Positions 1,144 to 33,327 of a DNA stretch of 33,424 bases are shown here, one piece after another; within the stretch, counting starts at the first letter, position 1; each line of letters starts with the position of its first letter. A program made the translations under genes and the position numbers. The stretch is from contig JALSHG010000006.1 in the NCBI GenBank assembly GCA_026982355.1, positions 1 to 33,424 on the forward strand. The letters are read 5' to 3'. This DNA comes from Thermodesulfovibrio sp. Lineage in GTDB: Bacteria > Nitrospirota > Thermodesulfovibrionia > UBA6902. Under the pieces are notes generated by a model, which was not told the origin of the DNA, ran no database searches, and saw only the letters and a list, made by a program, of their open reading frames with translations.

Positions 1144-1812
1144 TCACACGACAACAACGGATATCTTGTAACCGAACCGGTTTCTTGCATACTTGTCGGC
1201 GTACCAGTCGTTCTCGCGGCGGGTGCCGTCGATCAGATAGCTGAACCTGTACTCCCTGTTGCTGTCCAGATCCAAGGTTATGATAAAATCCCCGTTGTCC
1301 ATCCGCACCATGTGTGTTTCCGAAGGATCCCAGTTGTTGAAATCACCTATGAGACTGACGTTCCGCGCATCGCCGGCCGTCTCCTTCAGGAGCCTGAACG
1401 TAACCCTGCACCTGTATCCGTTGTTGTAATACTCCTTTATGAATCCCAGCTTGCTGGGCAGGCCGTCGGTATAGGGGATATGCACGAAGGAGAATATCTG
1501 TTCCAGCGCCTGTTTCTGCATGTCCCTGTCCTTCATCTTGAGCTCGATTCCCGCGAGGCATCTCCTGCCCGCCTGTCTCTTCCATACCACATCACCGAAC
1601 ACGGGCACGGATTTCTTCCCTCCCTGAAGCTCAACGATCAGTTCCAGGTTCTCATACACGATAAACCTGAAATCATGCGCCTCGACCCTGAACCCCCCGC
1701 TGCATAAATCCCGGGTCACACCTGTCGCATAGTCCGTGGCCCCGTAAGTAGGCCGGAACTTTACATTAATGGGGACTTCAAATCGCACGCATTTCCTTCT
1801 GTTGTTCAACAT
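1144..1812 (-). CDS. PilZ domain protein fused to a CBM48/AMPK-type glycogen-binding-like domain
   Basis: A 222-residue two-domain protein. Residues about 1-110 look like a PilZ (cyclic-di-GMP receptor) domain: a RKCVR motif at Arg6-Arg10 gives the RxxxR signature, followed by DLCSGG at 35-40, where the usual serine of the DxSxxG motif is Cys37. Residues about 132-222 look like the early-set immunoglobulin-like fold of CBM48/AMPK-beta domains, with VSLIGDFNNWDP (143-153), YRFSYLIDG and NDWYADKYARNRFG. No catalytic domain or signal peptide is visible, so a cytoplasmic c-di-GMP-responsive adaptor that binds a glucan or a protein partner is the simplest inference. The ATG at 1812 lies only about 2 nt after an AGGA, and a family A repeat lies immediately upstream. 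Confidence 0.82.
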   Translation of the reverse strand: MLNNRRKCVRFEVPINVKFRPTYGATDYATGVTRDLCSGGFRVEAHDFRFIVYENLELIVELQGGKKSVPVFGDVVWKRQAGRRCLAGIELKMKDRDMQKQALEQIFSFVHIPYTDGLPSKLGFIKEYYNNGYRCRVTFRLLKETAGDARNVSLIGDFNNWDPSETHMVRMDNGDFIITLDLDSNREYRFSYLIDGTRRENDWYADKYARNRFGYKISVVVV

Positions 1813-2935: not shown

Positions 2936-3027
2936 ACCTTAATGTTGCACAAGCCGGCAGGGGAGTCCGGCGTAAAACCTCCGGGCTCTCCTGCCCGCGG
3001 GCGGCATTTTTATGCCGCTGTAAGGTT
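2936..3027 (+). repeat. Family A palindromic repeat, about 90-bp form, nested in a shorter copy
   Basis: A complete copy from ACCTTAATGTTGCACAAG to ATGCCGCTGTAAGGTT. Left of it, 2907-2930 repeats the left end again (TTAATATTGCATGAACCGGC). Right of it, 3029-3042 repeats the short-form right end (ATGCAACCGTAAGG). The flanks joined together resemble the 50-bp form at 28553-28602, so this looks like one element inside another. It lies in the leader of the transketolase gene. Confidence 0.9.
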
Positions 3028-3057
3028 GATGCAACCGTAAGGAATGAAGGGAGGCGT

Positions 3058-4890
3058 GTGGATACCGAAAGAAAACTGGAAAAAATTGCAAGACTGATTC
3101 GTTACTATATTCTTGTATCAACCACAAACGCCGGTTCCGGCCATCCGACTTCTTCCCTGTCGGCAACCGACCTGATGACATGCCTCCTGTTCGGCGGGAT
3201 ATTCAGGTTCGACATAAACCGGCCCGGGCACCCCAACAATGACCGCCTGATCTTTTCCAAGGGCCATGCCGCCCCGCTTTTTTACGCACAGTGGGCCGCA
3301 GCCGGCGTGTTGACCGAGGAAGAGCTGATGAGCCTGAGGAAGTTCGGCAGCCGCCTTGAAGGCCATCCCACGAGGGCGTTCGACCTTGTTGAAGCGGCAA
3401 CCGGCTCCCTCGGACAGGGGCTCTCCATAGGAGTCGGCATCGCCCTGAACGCCGCATATGTAGACAAACTTCCGTACAGGACATACGTGCTCCTGGGAGA
3501 CAGTGAAATGGCCGAAGGCTCGCAGTGGGAGGCAATGCAGATAGCCTCCCATTACAGGCTCGGCAATCTTGTAGGCATCCTTGATGTAAACCGCCTGGGC
3601 CAGCGCGGAGAGACAATGTACGGGCATAACCTGGCGCTTTATGAAAAACGCATATCCTCTTTCGGCTGGGAGACCATTGTAATCGACGGGCATTCCACGG
3701 GGGAAATCCTCTCAGCCTATGAAAAGGCCTCGGCCGCCGGGGACAGGCCCGTCATGATCATCGCAAGGACCGTAAAGGGCAGGGGTGTCTCATTCATAGA
3801 GGATAAAAACGGCTGGCACGGCAAGACCATCAGCCGCGAGGACCTGCCGCGCGCCCTTGAAGAACTCGGCGAGGTTGATAAATCAGTGCGCGGGGAGATT
3901 CCGCTGCCGGAAGACATTGAGCCCGGTAAAAAGGCGCCGCAGGATATGGAGGATGTTGATTATGAGCCGGGCACGCCCGTTGCCACGAGGAAGGCATACG
4001 GAAACGCACTGAAGCGCATTTTTCCGGCCTTCCCCGGCATGGTGGTGCTGGATGCCGAGGTAAGCAATTCAACCTATTCGGAAATATTCCGGGAGGCGTA
4101 TCCGGAGCGTTTTTTCGAGATGTATATCGCGGAGCAGAACATGGCCGGCGTGGCCCTCGGCCTAGCATCAAGGGGCAGGACACCATTTGTCTCCACCTTT
4201 GCCGCATTCATGACCCGCGCATGCGACCAGATAAGGATGAGCCGTTATTCCGGGGCCGACATCAAGTTCTGCGGCTCGCACGCCGGAGTATCAATAGGTG
4301 AAGACGGCGCATCGCAGATGGGCCTTGAGGACATCTCCATGTTCAGGGCGATCCTCGACAGCGTGGTCCTGTACCCCTCCGACGCCGTATCGACCGAAAG
4401 GCTCGTGGAAGAGATGGCGGGGCATAAAGGCATAGCATACCTAAGAACCACGCGCAAAGCAACGCCTGTCATCTACAGCAGGGACGAGAAATTCTCAATC
4501 GGCGGCAGCAAGGTGCTGAGACAGAGCGATAAAGACAGGGTGACTGTTATTGCCGCCGGCATCACCCTGCATGAGGCCCTTCAGGCATACGAGGAATTAA
4601 TGAAAGAGGATATCTTCATACGTGTTATTGATCTTTACAGCATAAAACCCCTCGACCGCACCGCCCTTGAAACCGCCGCCAGGGAAACAGGCGCGTTTAT
4701 TACCGTTGAAGACCATTTCAGCGAAGGGGGCATCGGAGAGGCCGTAAGGAGCTCGATCCCGGAAAACCCCGTGCCTGTATATTCACTTGCAGTGAGAAAG
4801 ATGCCCAGGAGCGGCAAGCCGGCCGAACTGCTTGATTACGAGGAAATATCAAAGGGGGCGATTGTTTCTGCGGTTAAGAAGCTGTTATGA
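3058..4890 (+). CDS. tkt: Transketolase, full-length single-chain
   Basis: A 610-residue transketolase, transferring two-carbon ketol units in the non-oxidative pentose phosphate pathway, with thiamine diphosphate and a divalent metal. The N-terminal half has GSGHPTSS near residue 27, KGHAAP, EGHPT, TGSLGQGL and the ThDP/metal motif starting GDSEMAEG near 146. The central pyrimidine-binding domain carries the activating glutamate Glu359 in AEQNMAG, followed by GSHAGVSIGEDGASQMGLED. The size and motifs resemble the shorter animal-type transketolases more than E. coli TktA. GTG 3058 is chosen because GGGAGG ends 3 nt before it. The frame is open upstream to 2917, but that stretch is a translated repeat element. 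Its TGA stop overlaps the edge of a family B element. A second, split transketolase lies at 15194-17027. Confidence 0.93.
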   Translation: MDTERKLEKIARLIRYYILVSTTNAGSGHPTSSLSATDLMTCLLFGGIFRFDINRPGHPNNDRLIFSKGHAAPLFYAQWAAAGVLTEEELMSLRKFGSRLEGHPTRAFDLVEAATGSLGQGLSIGVGIALNAAYVDKLPYRTYVLLGDSEMAEGSQWEAMQIASHYRLGNLVGILDVNRLGQRGETMYGHNLALYEKRISSFGWETIVIDGHSTGEILSAYEKASAAGDRPVMIIARTVKGRGVSFIEDKNGWHGKTISREDLPRALEELGEVDKSVRGEIPLPEDIEPGKKAPQDMEDVDYEPGTPVATRKAYGNALKRIFPAFPGMVVLDAEVSNSTYSEIFREAYPERFFEMYIAEQNMAGVALGLASRGRTPFVSTFAAFMTRACDQIRMSRYSGADIKFCGSHAGVSIGEDGASQMGLEDISMFRAILDSVVLYPSDAVSTERLVEEMAGHKGIAYLRTTRKATPVIYSRDEKFSIGGSKVLRQSDKDRVTVIAAGITLHEALQAYEELMKEDIFIRVIDLYSIKPLDRTALETAARETGAFITVEDHFSEGGIGEAVRSSIPENPVPVYSLAVRKMPRSGKPAELLDYEEISKGAIVSAVKKLL

Positions 4891-5015: not shown

Positions 5016-5048
5016 GCATGACTTTAATATTGCAATACACCCTTTAAG

Positions 5049-5137
5049 TCCTGCAACAGGGACATATTTCCGGTGTCCCGACGCTTTATAAAGGTTTTAC
5101 GCCGGACCCTCCTGCCGGCTTATGCAGCTGTAAGGTT
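5049..5137 (-). repeat. Family A repeat, truncated long form
   Basis: From TCCTGCAACAGGGACATATT to CAGCTGTAAGGTT this matches the right-hand portion of the long copy at 21609-21826, including GCTTTATAAAGGTTTTACGC and CCTGCCGGCTTATGC. The left part is missing and family B lies about 34 bp away. The whole gap 4891-5320 holds family B, this fragment, then the csp promoter and leader. Confidence 0.88.
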
Positions 5138-5161
5138 AAGGTGGACTGGGTTGCTGCAGGG

Positions 5162-5628: not shown

Positions 5629-5716
5629 ACCCTGATGTTGCATAAGCGGGCGGGAGGGTCTCCGGCGTAAAACCTCCGGGCTCTCCCGCGCGCGGTATTT
5701 TTATGCCGGTGTAAGG
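5629..5716 (+). repeat. Family A palindromic repeat, about 90-bp form
   Basis: From ACCCTGATGTTGCATAAGC to TTTATGCCGGTGTAAGG, with the characteristic GTAAAACCTCCGGGCTCTCC core. It lies between the csp terminator and leuC, ending 36 bp before the leuC start. Confidence 0.9.
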
Positions 5717-5752
5717 CAAACCATGCCGCCGGCAATTTCCGGAGGAACATCA

Positions 5753-12286: not shown

Positions 12287-12340
12287 TCTTCCTCCCTTGT
12301 ACCGGAGAAACACGGATATCTATCTCCAGCTTTATACTTT

Positions 12341-12430
12341 ACCTTACAGTCACATGAAAATACCGCCCCCCGGCAGGGGAGCCCGAGGTTTTAGCCGGAC
12401 CCCGCCGCCGACTTATGCAACATTAAGGTT
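12341..12430 (-). repeat. Family A palindromic repeat, 90-bp form
   Basis: From ACCTTACAGTCACATGAAAA to TTATGCAACATTAAGGTT, with the core GGCAGGGGAGCCCGAGGTTT. It fills most of the gap between envC and ctpA, ending 4 bp before the envC stop codon (12435-12437). Any envC-ctpA co-transcript would carry this hairpin. Confidence 0.9.
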
Positions 12431-12434
12431 TATA

Positions 12435-13643
12435 TTAATATTTCCCCCTCTTCCGGCCTTTTTTCTTCAGCCACATCAGCGGGTTGACCGGCTTCCCTTT
12501 GTACCTGATCTCAAAATAAAGGCTGGGAACGTTCAGCAGTCTTGACTTGCCGACCGTCCCGACCGCCTCTCCTTTTCTAATTATATCACCTGTCCTGTGA
12601 AATATCTCCGAAAGGTTTCCATATAAGCTATGATAGCCGCTGCCGTGATTGATAATCAACAGCAGGCCGTATCCCTTGAACCAGTCGGCGTATACCACCC
12701 TGCCGCCCGAGACCGCCCTGGGCCTGTCACCGGGCCTTGCCTTGATTTCTATGCCGTTTTTGAAAACCGGGATATTGAATTTCGGGTCTCTGTATCTTCC
12801 GAAGGGAATAAGCACCCTGCCGTTGACAGGCCATGAGAGATGCCCCCTCTGTGACCTGAATCCCTTGCCGGTGACCGATGCGGGTATCTTCTTTTTTCCG
12901 AGCCGTCTGATCATCTCGCGGAGCCGTTTTGATGACTCTTCAAGCTCCCTGATGGTTTTTTCGTACGTGCTCCGCTTGCTCCGTATCATTGCAAGGAGCC
13001 TGTCCTTCTTGATGCGCTCGGCCTGTAATTCCTTTTTCTTCTGCAGGGCCTCGGCCTTGTTTGTCTCAAGCTTCCTGTGGAGGGTCTCCATCTCTCTTTT
13101 CCTGGAGTTGATCGCCCGTATCTTGGCGCCATAAGTCTTCATCTCCCTGCCGTCGTGGTAGGCAATCAGGCTTAAATACCTGCTTTTCCTGATCAGGTCC
13201 TGGTAGTCCCCGGCCGAAAGGAGCAGGAGGGCATTGCCGCCGTATTGCTGTTTGTAGAGCATTCTGAGACGCTTTTTCAGGTATTGCCTGCTCTTGCGGG
13301 ACTTGGCCCTGAGGGCATTGATCTCCCCGGAAAGCCGTGCAATGTCTGAGCTTGTCCGGGCGATGCGTTTGTCATAATAGCGGAGTTCCTGCTGTTTTTT
13401 TTCGATGGTCCTGTTTATGGCTTCGATTCTCGAGAGTATGGATTTCTCTTTTTCCCTGGCTTCCCTTACCCGCCGCTTTTTTTCGATAAGCTGTTTCCGG
13501 ATTTCAGAGAGTTTTTTTTTGGGGTTTGCGGCGTCCGGTTGCGGGAATGGAAAGGCGGCCAGGATAAAAAGCACAAGACATGACACGGCAAGCAAGACCC
13601 TGACCCTCCGTCCCCTGTCGCCGGTTTTATTTTCTTTGCTCAT
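12435..13643 (-). CDS. envC: EnvC-like murein hydrolase activator (coiled coil + degenerate LytM)
   Basis: A 402-residue exported protein. A basic N-terminus and hydrophobic segment (about 14-33) look like a signal peptide. Residues about 38-270 are heptad-rich and highly charged, a long coiled coil with a break near GGNALLLLSAGDYQD. The C-terminal M23/LytM domain (about 290-390) has lost its zinc ligands: the HxGxD position reads NGIEI, the HxH motif reads HSLYGNL with Asn in place of the second His, and LHFEIR reads LYFEIR. That matches E. coli EnvC, which activates amidases rather than cutting murein. It starts 3 bp after the ftsX stop. FtsX is expected to hold the coiled coil in the periplasm. 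Confidence 0.92.
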   Translation of the reverse strand: MSKENKTGDRGRRVRVLLAVSCLVLFILAAFPFPQPDAANPKKKLSEIRKQLIEKKRRVREAREKEKSILSRIEAINRTIEKKQQELRYYDKRIARTSSDIARLSGEINALRAKSRKSRQYLKKRLRMLYKQQYGGNALLLLSAGDYQDLIRKSRYLSLIAYHDGREMKTYGAKIRAINSRKREMETLHRKLETNKAEALQKKKELQAERIKKDRLLAMIRSKRSTYEKTIRELEESSKRLREMIRRLGKKKIPASVTGKGFRSQRGHLSWPVNGRVLIPFGRYRDPKFNIPVFKNGIEIKARPGDRPRAVSGGRVVYADWFKGYGLLLIINHGSGYHSLYGNLSEIFHRTGDIIRKGEAVGTVGKSRLLNVPSLYFEIRYKGKPVNPLMWLKKKGRKRGKY

Positions 13644-15193: not shown

Positions 15194-16192
15194 TCAACCA
15201 GAGTTCTTCACTGTCTCGACAATGTCACCGGCCGTCATTCCGTAACGCTTGAGCAAATCGTCCGGCGTGCCTGAGCATCCGAAGGTGTCCCGCACCCCGA
15301 TCCGCCTGACGGTCACCGGATGGTTCTCCGACAGGAATTCACACACGGACCCGCCGAGGCCGCCGATGACCGAGTGTTCCTCGGCCGTTACAATGAGAGC
15401 CGATGTCCTCGCAACCCGCAGGAGTGTCTCTTCATCAAGCGGCTTTATCGTGGACATGTTGACCACGCCCGTATCGATTCCCTCTCCCGAGAGTATCTCC
15501 GCGGCCTTTTTCGCGATGTCCACCATGATCCCGGCGGCTATGATTGTCGCATCCTTCCCGATATGAAACACAAAGGCCTTCCCGGGAGTGAACCTGTAGT
15601 CATCGGGCATGACATAGGGGACCTTCGCCCGTCCCAGCCTGACATAGACAGGTCCCTTGTGATCCGCCACCGCGCTGATGGCGGATGCGGTCTCGGATGC
15701 ATCCGCCGGCACGATCACCATCATGTTCGGCAGGGCCCTCATCAGGGCGATATCCTCGAGCGCCTGGTGCGATGCCCCGTCTTCGCCGACCGTTACGCCG
15801 CCGTGGGTCGCGACGAGTTTCACATTTGTGTTCGAGTAGCACACGGCAAGCCGTATCTGATCCCACGCCCTGCCTGTTTCAAACACCGCAAACGTTGAAG
15901 CAAAGGGGACCTTCCCGGCCAGGGCGAGGCCGGCGGCGGTTCCTATCATGTCCTGTTCCGCCACCCCCATATTAAAAAACCTGTCGGGGAATTCCCTGGC
16001 GAACCTGGCCGTCTTCGTCGAACCCGACAGGTCGGCGTCAAGGGCCACTATGTCCGGGCGTCTTTTGCCGAGCTCGAGCAGTGTCTCGCCGTAGGCATCT
16101 CTCGTGGCCTTGGGCTTTCTCGGGGTAACATGCCCTGGATGATGCGGTACGGCGTCCTGCACATCCTGCCGCGTCTTATGAAGTTCGGTCAT
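15194..16192 (-). CDS. Transketolase C-terminal subunit (split transketolase)
   Basis: A 332-residue protein equivalent to the central and C-terminal domains of transketolase. The ThDP-activating glutamate is in MGVAEQDMIGTAAGLAL, followed by ATHGGVTVGEDGASHQALED, VPADASETASA and YVRLGRAKVP; the C-terminal domain includes EEHSVIGGLGG. It should work only with the N-terminal subunit encoded upstream. ATG 16192 is chosen over the adjacent TTG because GGAG lies 7 nt upstream; the start overlaps the N-subunit stop by 17 bp. Residues 1-25 are an extra His/Pro-containing leader without an obvious role. The next gene is ftsE, 3 bp downstream. Confidence 0.93.
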   Translation of the reverse strand: MTELHKTRQDVQDAVPHHPGHVTPRKPKATRDAYGETLLELGKRRPDIVALDADLSGSTKTARFAREFPDRFFNMGVAEQDMIGTAAGLALAGKVPFASTFAVFETGRAWDQIRLAVCYSNTNVKLVATHGGVTVGEDGASHQALEDIALMRALPNMMVIVPADASETASAISAVADHKGPVYVRLGRAKVPYVMPDDYRFTPGKAFVFHIGKDATIIAAGIMVDIAKKAAEILSGEGIDTGVVNMSTIKPLDEETLLRVARTSALIVTAEEHSVIGGLGGSVCEFLSENHPVTVRRIGVRDTFGCSGTPDDLLKRYGMTAGDIVETVKNSG

Positions 16193-17027
16193 CAAGAATC
16201 TCCTTTACGGCCCTGTCGAACTCCTCCCGTGTAGGGGCCACTCCGTGATATTCTACTTTATTTTCAAAGAAAGATACACCCTTGCCCTTGGTTGTACGGG
16301 CGATTATTATGCTGGGCCTCCCCTTTACTGTTTCGGCCTCATCGAGGGCGTCGATGATCTCCTGCATGTTGTGTCCGTCTATATCCATAACGTGCCAGCC
16401 GAACGCGGCCCACTTGTCGCGCAGGGGTTCGATCCCCATGACTTTTTCCACCGGGCCGTCTATCTGCAGGCCGTTGTTGTCGACAACGGCGCAGATGTTG
16501 TCGATCTTATAATGGGCCGCGGTCATGGCGGCTTCCCAGACCTGCCCCTCCTGCACCTCTCCGTCGCCCATGATGCAGTATACCCGCGCGGGGTTGCCGT
16601 CAAGCCTCAGCCCCAGGGCCATGCCGTTGGCGACCGACAGCCCCTGGCCGAGAGAGCCGGTTGAGATTTCTATGCCGGGCAGCATTGCAGAACACGGATG
16701 ACCCTGCAGGGGGGAGCCGGTCTTTCTGAGGGTTTTGATCGCGTCTTCCCGGAAATAGCCCGCCTCCGCCATGACGGCATAGATCAGGGGGGCTGCGTGG
16801 CCCTTTGACAGCACGAACCTGTCCCTTTCCTCCCACGAGGGGTCCGCCGGATTAAACTTCATCCTGGAAAAATATATCGCAACCGCCACATCCACGGCGG
16901 AGAGTGAACCGCCCGTATGTCCCGAACCTGCCAGTGTCAGCATGTGCAGGATATTTATACGCACGTTTTTTGCAATTTTTTTCAATTCATTGATATCCGT
17001 GATCTTCCCTTCAGTCATCACACCCAT
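16176..17027 (-). CDS. Transketolase N-terminal subunit (split transketolase)
   Basis: A 283-residue ThDP-binding half of transketolase. Motifs include LAGSGHTGGSLSAVDV, SKGHAAPLIYA, LQGHP, STGSLGQGLSVANGMALG and the ThDP/metal motif from MGDGEVQEGQVWEA to VVDNNGLQ, then ARTTKGKGVSFFE. Split transketolases are widespread in archaea and anaerobic bacteria and serve pentose or ribose synthesis; some are specialised for other sugars. ATG 17027 is chosen because GGGAG lies about 6 nt upstream; the frame extends upstream to 17150 across the promoter. It is the first gene of a leftward operon with the C-subunit, ftsE, ftsX and envC. Confidence 0.93.
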   Translation of the reverse strand: MGVMTEGKITDINELKKIAKNVRINILHMLTLAGSGHTGGSLSAVDVAVAIYFSRMKFNPADPSWEERDRFVLSKGHAAPLIYAVMAEAGYFREDAIKTLRKTGSPLQGHPCSAMLPGIEISTGSLGQGLSVANGMALGLRLDGNPARVYCIMGDGEVQEGQVWEAAMTAAHYKIDNICAVVDNNGLQIDGPVEKVMGIEPLRDKWAAFGWHVMDIDGHNMQEIIDALDEAETVKGRPSIIIARTTKGKGVSFFENKVEYHGVAPTREEFDRAVKEILDDRTS

Positions 17028-17102
17028 AACATTCTCCCAAAGAAAATAATATACCGGAACCTCGACAGCCCGTTGCTCAACCGGAATATTGACGAACGTT
17101 AA

Positions 17103-17132
17103 ATTATAAAATTTCCGGACGTTCAGAAGCAA
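17103..17132 (-). promoter_or_regulatory. Promoter for the leftward transketolase-ftsEX-envC operon
   Basis: Read on the minus strand, TTGCTT (17132-17127) and a perfect TATAAT (17108-17103) are 18 bp apart. Transcription would start near 17096, giving a leader of about 69 nt before the ATG at 17027. No other good promoter was noticed between the five closely packed genes. Confidence 0.6.
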
Positions 17133-17165
17133 GGAGCGGCGTTCCGGCAAACATTTCCGCCGAGC

Positions 17166-21576: not shown

Positions 21577-21608
21577 CTCATAATCGCCACAGCCGTTTAT
21601 GCAACATT

Positions 21609-21826
21609 AACCTTACAGTGGCATAAAAATGCCGCCCGCGGGCAGGGGAGTCAGGCGGAAAAGCTTTATCCGCGATACCTTGGAGAGTATTCCGCACGGC
21701 TTATCGACATCCCTTGGAATTTCACTCTCCGTTACCTCCTGCAATAAAGACATATTTCCGATATCCCATCGCTTTATAAAGGTTTTACGCCGGACTCCCC
21801 TGCCGGCTTGTGCAACATTTAAGGTT
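21609..21826 (-). repeat. Family A repeat, complete 218-bp long form
   Basis: Ends are AACCTTACAGTGGCATAAAA and TTGTGCAACATTTAAGGTT. Inside, GGCGGAAAAGCTTTAT on the left is the inverted partner of CTTTATAAAGGTTTTACGCC on the right, so the element is an imperfect palindrome over nearly its whole length. The stop codon of the sugar transferase (21825-21827) overlaps its last bases. Just outside, 21596-21610 (TTTATGCAACATTAA) looks like the end of a further copy. Confidence 0.92.
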
Positions 21827-23246
21827 AATACACTCCCTCCCCGTTGATCACAACCCTTATGGTCCTGAAAAGGATAACGATATCCAGCCACAGGTTCCAG
21901 TTTCTTACATACCAGGAGTCAAGCACTATCCTGTAATCATACCCGGTGTTGTTCCTGCCGCTGACCTGCCACAGGCCGGTGATGCCCGGCAGCACCCCGA
22001 AGCAGAGCTTCGCCTGCTCCCTGTAGTACTTGTCTATCTCCCTTTTTGTAACGGGCCTCGGCCCCACAAGACTCATCTCCCCCTTCAGGACATTGAATAT
22101 CTGCGGCAGCTCGTCAAGGGACGTCCGCCTCAGAAACCTGCCGATTTTCGTAATCCTCGGATCATTCCTGAGTTTCCAGTTGTGCTTCCATTCATTCCTT
22201 GTCTCCTCATTGCTCTGCAGGAGGCTGTCGAGCCTCTCTTCAGCGTCGTTGAACATCGTCCTGAACTTATGGCACTTGAACGGCCGGTCGTTTCTCCCCC
22301 TCCGCTCCTGTGAATATATGACGGGACCCGGGGAATTAAGCTTTATCAGTACGGCGATTATCATCATGGGAACGGCAAGAATGAGAAGCAGGATCGCGCT
22401 GACGAGCAGGTCGAAGACCCTCTTGATGAAGATATTGGCCGGGTGCGCAAGGTTGTTCTTTACCTCAAGGCCGATCGCCTGTTCCTGGAAAAAGTGCTGC
22501 AGGTTCGTCCCGAGCACGGTTATTCCGAACAGGTCCGGGATAAGTATGATATTCCGCGCCTTGTGCTGCAGCCTGTTGACAAGGGAGATGAATTTGTTCT
22601 TTTCACACCCGGGCATCGCTATGACAATATCCTCGATCCCGCACCTGCCGATGTATTTATGCGCCTTGTCCACCCCTGCGTGTATCTTTACACCCCCGAT
22701 CCTGCCGCCTATCTTTGCGGGGTCGTCGTCAAGAAAGCCGACGACATTCAGGCCGAGGTTTCTGTCTCTCTTCAGGGCATTAAAGATAAGCTCCCCGGTC
22801 TTTCCCGCCCCGAGTATGAGGACCTTGCTCTTAAGCAGGCCGATGAATATCAGAAGCTTCTTGGCGTTGATCCTGATGATCGGAAAGACCGGGATGGATA
22901 TAATCCCCATCAGCACCAGCACGGTTCTCGATACCCGCTCTCCGACCTTGCCGAGATACAGTATGGAGAATGTGGCAAGGGTGGCGAAGAAGACGACCTT
23001 CCACAGCATCTTCACCTCGTCCCAGAACGAAAACCTTTTTGTATACATCCCCTCGTAGGCAAGAAAAAAGAGCCAGACGGGAAAGACCCACCAGAAAAAG
23101 GTGAAACTCTCGTGGGGATATGGCGGAAATGCATGGAACCGCGGCAGAACGTCCTTTCTGAGGAATATCGCGCCCTGAAGTACAATGAAAATCGTGACAG
23201 CATCCGCTACAAAGAGTGCAAATATTCCCAGACTTCTCTTGGTCAT
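21825..23246 (-). CDS. Undecaprenyl-phosphate sugar-phosphate transferase (WbaP-type)
   Basis: A 473-residue polyprenyl glycosylphosphotransferase that starts surface glycan synthesis by moving sugar-1-phosphate from a nucleotide sugar to undecaprenyl phosphate. Four N-terminal helices (within about 1-125), a Rossmann-like middle domain (KVLILGAGKTGELIFNAL, about 142-160) and a re-entrant hydrophobic segment (about 285-310) precede the catalytic domain: KRVFDLLVSA, GPVIYSQERRGRNDRPFKCHKFRTM, DPRITKIGRFLRRTSLDELPQ, NVLKGEMSLVGPRPV, PGITGLWQVSGRN. Full length and domain order match WbaP; whether galactose or another sugar is used cannot be read. No glycosyltransferase cluster follows here. A strong promoter lies about 87 nt upstream. 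Confidence 0.93.
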   Translation of the reverse strand: MTKRSLGIFALFVADAVTIFIVLQGAIFLRKDVLPRFHAFPPYPHESFTFFWWVFPVWLFFLAYEGMYTKRFSFWDEVKMLWKVVFFATLATFSILYLGKVGERVSRTVLVLMGIISIPVFPIIRINAKKLLIFIGLLKSKVLILGAGKTGELIFNALKRDRNLGLNVVGFLDDDPAKIGGRIGGVKIHAGVDKAHKYIGRCGIEDIVIAMPGCEKNKFISLVNRLQHKARNIILIPDLFGITVLGTNLQHFFQEQAIGLEVKNNLAHPANIFIKRVFDLLVSAILLLILAVPMMIIAVLIKLNSPGPVIYSQERRGRNDRPFKCHKFRTMFNDAEERLDSLLQSNEETRNEWKHNWKLRNDPRITKIGRFLRRTSLDELPQIFNVLKGEMSLVGPRPVTKREIDKYYREQAKLCFGVLPGITGLWQVSGRNNTGYDYRIVLDSWYVRNWNLWLDIVILFRTIRVVINGEGVY

Positions 23247-25970: not shown

Positions 25971-26187
25971 AACTTTAGTGTCGCATAAGCAGGCAGGGGA
26001 GTCCGCCGGAAAACCTTTATAAAGCGATGGGATATCGGAAATATGTCTCTGTTGCGGGATTCAACGGAGAGTGAAATTGCAAAAGACGGCGATATGCCGT
26101 GCGGGATATTTCCTGAAGGTATCGCAGATAAAGCTTTTCCGCCGGGCTCCCCTGCCCGCAGGCGATGTTTTATGCAATCGCAAGGTT
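25971..26187 (+). repeat. Family A repeat, complete 217-bp long form
   Basis: The ends are AACTTTAGTGTCGCATAAGC and TATGCAATCGCAAGGTT. It carries, inverted, the internal blocks of the copy at 21609-21826: CCTTTATAAAGCGATGGGAT, GGAGAGTGAAATT and CAGATAAAGCTTTTCCGCC. It occupies nearly the whole guaB-guaA gap and ends 10 bp before the guaA ATG. Confidence 0.92.
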
Positions 26188-33103: not shown

Positions 33104-33174
33104 TCTAACGCTCTCTCAGTATATTCGAGATATTCCTTAACAACTTTTTCAGGATAACTTTCAATAAGTTTACC
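33070..33174 (-). pseudogene. HEPN-domain protein remnant (C-terminal fragment only)
   Basis: On the minus strand a frame without a start codon encodes about 34 residues, LIESYPEKVVKEYLEYTERA then LEWLKQNEKLKT, and ends at TAA 33072-33070. The amphipathic final helix, and the overlap with the MNT gene in the order HEPN then MNT, fit the C-terminus of a HEPN toxin. Moving upstream the frame meets an in-frame TAA (33177-33175) formed by the end of the family A repeat (AAGGTAA on the minus strand). The remaining 90-100 N-terminal residues expected are not present in the window. Confidence 0.62.
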
Positions 33175-33327
33175 TTACAGTGGCATAAAAATGCCGCCCG
33201 TGGGCAGGGGAGTCCGGCGGAAAAGCTTTATCCGCGATACCTTGGAGAGTATTCCGCACGGCATATCGACATCCCTTGGAATTTCACTCTCCGTTACGTC
33301 CTGCAACAGGGACATATCCCATCGCCT
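33171..33327 (-). repeat. Family A repeat, long form truncated by family B
   Basis: It starts TACCTTACAGTGGCATAAAA and is near-identical to 21609 onward through GAAAAGCTTTATCCGCGATA and CCGCACGGC to CAGGGACATATCCCATCGC. There the match stops and family B begins. The right third is missing. It abuts the broken HEPN fragment. Confidence 0.9.

Follow-up and report, generated by a model that had tools for sequence, protein, structure and literature searches.

Does a protein that joins a PilZ domain to a CBM48/AMPK-beta-like domain tie c-di-GMP, a biofilm and motility signal, to stored glucan? This question is raised by one gene of the window, that is, the whole 33,424-nucleotide stretch of DNA that was analysed. 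The initial annotation had described the encoded protein as such a fusion with no enzyme domain, and had suggested a direct connection between c-di-GMP and carbohydrate storage or surface glycan.

Domain architecture and predicted fold

ORF calling gave a complete and real open reading frame of 222 aa on the minus strand, starting with ATG (Table 1). Two Pfam profiles matched the protein above their cut-offs: PilZ (PF07238) at aa 4-105 with 31.8 bits (cut-off 22.5, E=1.9e-7) and CBM_48 (PF02922) at aa 146-209 with 30.5 bits (cut-off 22.4, E=4.7e-7), while AMPK1_CBM (PF16561) stayed slightly below its cut-off (25.2 against 26.8 bits). Pfam detected no enzyme domain, in agreement with the annotation. 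The C-terminal alpha/gamma-binding region of AMPK-beta is also absent, as the protein stops with CBM48 at aa 222 and gives no such Pfam match.

An AlphaFold2 model (mean pLDDT 85.6, pTM 0.53) was computed from an input alignment of 34 homologues; it supports the fold of each domain, while the placement of PilZ relative to CBM48 is not defined by it. In Foldseek comparisons with the PDB, the model matched the beta-barrel of the BcsA PilZ domain (4i86, TM 0.77 by target length) and the early-set beta-sandwich of the cyclodextrin-bound AMPK beta1 CBM (4yef, TM 0.80 by target length). Structure prediction had been named beforehand as a check of the proposed fusion, and neither a missing PilZ barrel nor a C-terminal domain of a different fold was seen. 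The predicted structure of a canonical sister is made up of the same elements; its linker is of low confidence and its domain orientation undefined. A chance ORF or a mis-assembly was ruled out, since the fused frame recurs, at 88-95% identity and with dN/dS 0.08-0.14, in three genomes of the genus that were assembled separately, and 34 proteins in all have it. The N-terminus reads MLNNRRKCVRF, and by eye neither a signal peptide nor a membrane segment is visible in the protein; the suggested link to surface glycan is therefore unlikely.

Table 1. Coordinates of the fusion gene, its functional sites and the separate CBM48 and PilZ genes. Positions are those of the window unless a locus label (L) is given.
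Feature	Position	Strand	Evidence
PilZ-CBM48 fusion gene, 222 aa	1144..1812	-	ORF, Pfam, AlphaFold2 model, Foldseek, 34 homologues
PilZ domain, aa 4-105	1498..1803	-	PF07238 E=1.9e-7; 4i86 PilZ TM 0.77 by target length
RxxxR c-di-GMP motif, aa 6-10	1783..1797	-	R6 and R10 invariant in 34/34 fusions
[D/N]xSxxG motif, aa 35-40, here D-L-C-S-G-G; Cys37 codon TGC at 1702-1704	1693..1710	-	Fusion alignment
Interdomain linker, aa 114-122, 9 residues	1447..1473	-	9-11 residues in the genus vs 25-82 in other fusions
CBM48/AMPK-beta-like domain with N-terminal strand, aa 123-222	1147..1446	-	PF02922; 4yef TM 0.80
Trp161, counterpart of AMPK W100 (FNNW motif), kept	1330..1332	-	W in 34/34 fusions and 43/43 standalone CBM48s
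Ser191, counterpart of AMPK K126	1240..1242	-	S in 3/3 of the genus; R/K in 30/31 other fusions and 43/43 standalone
Arg199, counterpart of AMPK W133	1216..1218	-	R in 3/3 of the genus; W in 31/31 other fusions and 43/43 standalone
Ile217, counterpart of AMPK N150	1162..1164	-	I in 3/3 of the genus; D in 28/31 other fusions; D/N in 42/43 standalone
CBM48-PilZ-PilZ row, the fusion's counterpart in separate genes	L005 2492-3782 (own genome, contig C60); L148 1532-2938; L193 1689-2893
Standalone CBM48 proteins	L005 2492-2905; L006 2729-3151; L163-L202; L212-L232

Distribution and genomic context of the fusion

Genome searches and ORF calling covered 47 genomes of the order, 27 of which carry PilZ-CBM48 fusions, with a total of 34 fusions and up to three paralogues per genome. 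Of these genomes, 25 belong to the family of the window (f1) and two to a sister family (f5); in one genome (G013) the PilZ half is truncated by the contig end. In a sample of 396 genomes of the phylum no fusion was detected beyond those of the order, with only separate CBM48 or PilZ matches elsewhere, nor was one detected in 247 Pseudomonadota and 296 Bacteroidota genomes, which at the thresholds used gave matches to the CBM48 part only, and the plasmid search returned only standalone CBM48; the patterns of the whole-collection genome scan came from the diverged window copy, and distant fusions could escape them. The literature searched, which covers few subscription journals, yielded no description of the pairing; the one paper in which PilZ and CBM48 both occur names each of them a single time. 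In the CBM48 tree, which is built on a short domain and has weak deep forks, fused and standalone copies lie almost fully apart (two label changes against about 25 when shuffled), a topology that is compatible with a single fusion event. Two paralogous fusions stand on one contig (C51) of genome G005, at L117 5709-6551 (-) and 8860-9588 (+), with a DUF480 gene and a PAS histidine kinase gene between them; the second is a canonical sister, 65% identical to the window protein.

The window copy is flanked by genes for a HAD-family hydrolase, a TPR protein and a transketolase in an order kept only within the genus, and across the 34 fusion loci no neighbour is conserved beyond close relatives and no partner is indicated. 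A GGDEF gene lies within four genes of the fusion at 4/34 loci (one neighbour cluster scanned) in genomes that hold up to 44 GGDEF matches, which is too few for much conclusion. The genome of the window itself has 13 GGDEF matches, a strong glycogen-synthase-type match and a 678-aa CBM48 ORF of branching-enzyme size, the identity of each of the latter two being taken from one domain match and the ORF length. Genes of these three kinds are present in most of the fusion-bearing genomes. Standalone CBM48 proteins, mostly with lysine-rich, low-complexity N-terminal tails, are often encoded several times per genome in this bacterial family. Two of them are found in the genome of the window, and one opens a row of CBM48, PilZ and PilZ genes that also occurs in the genus mate G001 and in G004; its first PilZ protein keeps RxxxR and DxSxxG, as judged by eye. 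This group thus joins CBM48 and PilZ in two ways, within one protein and as neighbouring genes, and this speaks for a common function.

Some further features of the window were recorded. At 3058-4890, one gene (610 aa) encodes the three transketolase domains together, and an apparent split transketolase-type pair, recognized from ORF sequences only, forms a second such set at 15194-17150. A GC-rich dispersed repeat of about 90-150 nt is located at 1813-1918 and 2936-3041 and also near 5041-5143, 5629-5721, 12338-12436, 21607-21831, 25971-26171 and 33169-33317. The first two copies (106 nt, 85% complementary) are oppositely oriented and stand on either side of the TPR gene that lies upstream of the fusion. 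In the same genome, scoring 40 of 627 candidates gave at least 40 further or equal matches with 86-100% identity. No Rfam family reached its gathering score anywhere in the window, the repeat included.

The c-di-GMP and glucan sites

Both arginines of the RxxxR motif are kept in the window protein, as in every other fusion. The second PilZ motif, canonical in 31/31 other fusions, reads D35-L-C37-S-G-G40 here and is DxCxxG in both genus mates as well, so that residue 37 is Cys in 3/3 genomes of the genus and Ser in 31/31 other fusions, just as the initial annotation had noticed for the window copy. By fold and profile the protein is a PilZ protein, with a predicted c-di-GMP site that is not fully canonical. 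Judging from the two retained arginines, it probably still binds c-di-GMP, perhaps in an altered manner.

Cys37 is the smaller of the changes in this protein. In AMPK beta1, W100, K126, W133, L146 and T148 contact sugar and mutating each of them lowers glycogen binding, which is markedly reduced in the K126 or W133 single mutants (PMC2642990), N150 hydrogen-bonds the first glucose (PMC9788615), and mutation of both Trp residues in the plant protein PTST abolished starch binding (PMC4339375). Counterparts of four of these positions were assigned in the fusions, residues 191 (K126) and 199 (W133) from a profile alignment to AMPK beta2, residue 161 (W100) by the FNNW motif and residue 217 (N150) by eye. 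The window protein and its genus mates carry W, S, R and I at W100, K126, W133 and N150, respectively, whereas nearly all other fusions and the standalone CBM48s retain the sugar-contact residues (Table 1), the standalone CBM48s of the same genus doing so at every one of these positions. Consequently, the direct connection between c-di-GMP and storage glucan is a sound proposal for the family, where canonical motifs and sugar-contact residues persist in nearly all of the 31 other fusions, but it does not carry over well to the window gene with its Ser, Arg and Ile. This lineage has lost most of the residues that hold glucan, three of the four main contact positions compared, and so probably has another job, although the retained Trp161 leaves room for weak or different sugar binding. 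The case serves as a warning that the domain name alone, which would assign glycogen binding, misleads when the predicted binding site is largely gone.

These residues bear on two other readings. The CBM48 of the whole family might be a protein-docking module that never binds glucan; the fusions would then be protein adaptors that depend on c-di-GMP, with glycogen enzymes or something quite different as their possible targets. Some CBM48s are mainly regulatory, the neighbours of the fusions are not consistently glycogen genes, and the genus lost the pocket without losing the gene, which shows the glucan site to be dispensable for the conserved function. Nevertheless, we regard this as unlikely, since the sugar-contact residues are almost invariant in the 31 fusions and 43 standalone CBM48s, as would be expected of a glucan site in use. 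The second reading, that the window gene itself couples c-di-GMP directly to a glycogen-like glucan through a working CBM48, would agree with the profile and fold matches, with the conserved Trp161 and RxxxR, and with the glycogen-synthase-type gene and the CBM48 ORF of enzyme size in the genome. Given that all three members of the genus have Ser, Arg and Ile at positions that their standalone CBM48s never changed, and that either of the first two exchanges falls on a residue whose single mutation is so damaging in AMPK beta1 (PMC2642990), it is quite improbable.

Remodelling of the ligand sites in one genus

Among the 31 relatives 81 positions are near-invariant; 75 of these are kept and six are changed in all three genus members. 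Five of the six changes (N35D, S37C, R/K191S, W199R and D217I) affect ligand-site positions, of which there are nine in total. A hypergeometric test gave p=2.8e-5, or 3.6e-4 when N35D, which the motif allows, is dropped from the changes, but the ligand positions, though taken from the literature, were tested after the alignment had been seen, so these values are indicative. The genus is represented by three genomes only. When the other 31 fusions were tested one by one in a similar way, none had more than one ligand-site change. The linker is also much shorter in the genus than in the other fusions (Table 1). In the nearest relatives in the tree, G005 and G012, position 217 is occupied by Ala, which suggests that the site was lost stepwise. 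The dN/dS values among the genus members (0.08-0.14) indicate purifying selection. The pattern is one of targeted remodelling under constraint, not of decay.

Remodelling of this kind could also mean that the copy of this genus switched its sugar specificity, with Ser191, Arg199, Tyr215 and Ile217 lining a new pocket that accepts a different saccharide or a phosphorylated glucan. The changes cluster in the pocket and became fixed in a gene under purifying selection, Trp161 is kept, and Arg199 and Tyr215 could provide new polar or stacking contacts. However, the replacement of a stacking Trp by Arg is unusual for a platform that binds neutral sugars, and neither a candidate ligand nor a saccharide gene cluster adjoining the gene has come to light, which makes such a switch very doubtful. 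Decay toward a pseudogene, with changes in the ligand sites of both domains and canonical CBM48 copies persisting in the same genome, is hardly credible in view of the dN/dS values, on which a decayed gene was rejected, the frame intact in three genomes and the 75 near-invariant positions that are kept.

Proposed function and comparison with known systems

Considering these results, the reading we prefer, which has in our view an even chance of being correct, is that the fusions are cytoplasmic c-di-GMP-responsive glycogen-docking adaptors, and that the lineage of the window lost glucan docking while keeping a conserved adaptor role. In the family, CBM48 would dock the protein on glycogen or another alpha-glucan, and c-di-GMP bound to PilZ would change which partner is held or released. 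The window copy would be a derivative of this adaptor that has given up docking on alpha-glucan, presumably still binds c-di-GMP through the two RxxxR arginines, and may use the remodelled face of its CBM48 for protein contact. A broader proposal can be put forward only tentatively, and may well prove wrong: the fusions would form an order-restricted class of c-di-GMP-gated glycogen-docking adaptors in Nitrospirota, which one genus has repurposed (pocket dismantled, linker shortened, PilZ site altered, protein conserved), leaving glucan docking to the standalone CBM48s and the split CBM48-PilZ-PilZ row. The 31 canonical fusions, the three with a dismantled pocket, the standalone CBM48s and the split row make up a matched series, in which the role of each ligand site can be compared.

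The closest CBM48 relatives are standalone proteins of the same bacteria, named 'isoamylase early set domain-containing', with an identity of about 43-60% to the CBM48 of the window protein. Unlike the window protein, they have no PilZ, mostly bear lysine-rich N-terminal tails and keep the glucan-site residues intact. The CBM of AMPK beta shares with the window protein the fold, the Trp of the FNNW motif, the lack of catalytic function and the place within a signalling protein, and the fusions outside the genus also keep the counterparts of K126, W133 and N150, which the genus has lost. On the other hand, the window protein has a PilZ domain, lacks the alpha/gamma-binding region and a kinase, and falls just below the PF16561 cut-off. 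The plant scaffolds PTST/FLO6 likewise carry a non-catalytic CBM48 on another domain and are proposed to deliver a partner to glucan (PMC4339375); there, granule-bound starch synthase is held by a coiled coil (PMC4339375), in whose place the N-terminal part of the window protein has PilZ. PilZ domains fused to output domains are an already known kind of protein (PMC10333796). YcgR, BcsA and MapZ have the same PilZ fold with RxxxR kept, and their PilZ switches a partner or the domain to which it is attached (PMC10333796, PMC7288161), but in the window protein the attached domain is CBM48, and in its genus the Ser of [D/N]xSxxG is Cys. A direct connection between c-di-GMP and glycogen exists in Streptomyces GlgX, which also bears a CBM48; this protein is a c-di-GMP-regulated glycogen debranching enzyme that has no PilZ domain, PilZ not being mentioned in the paper (PMC9530166), whereas the window protein lacks a catalytic domain. 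Should the fusions act as proposed, c-di-GMP would be tied to stored glycogen by a dedicated receptor, in contrast to an enzyme that happens to bind the messenger, as GlgX does.
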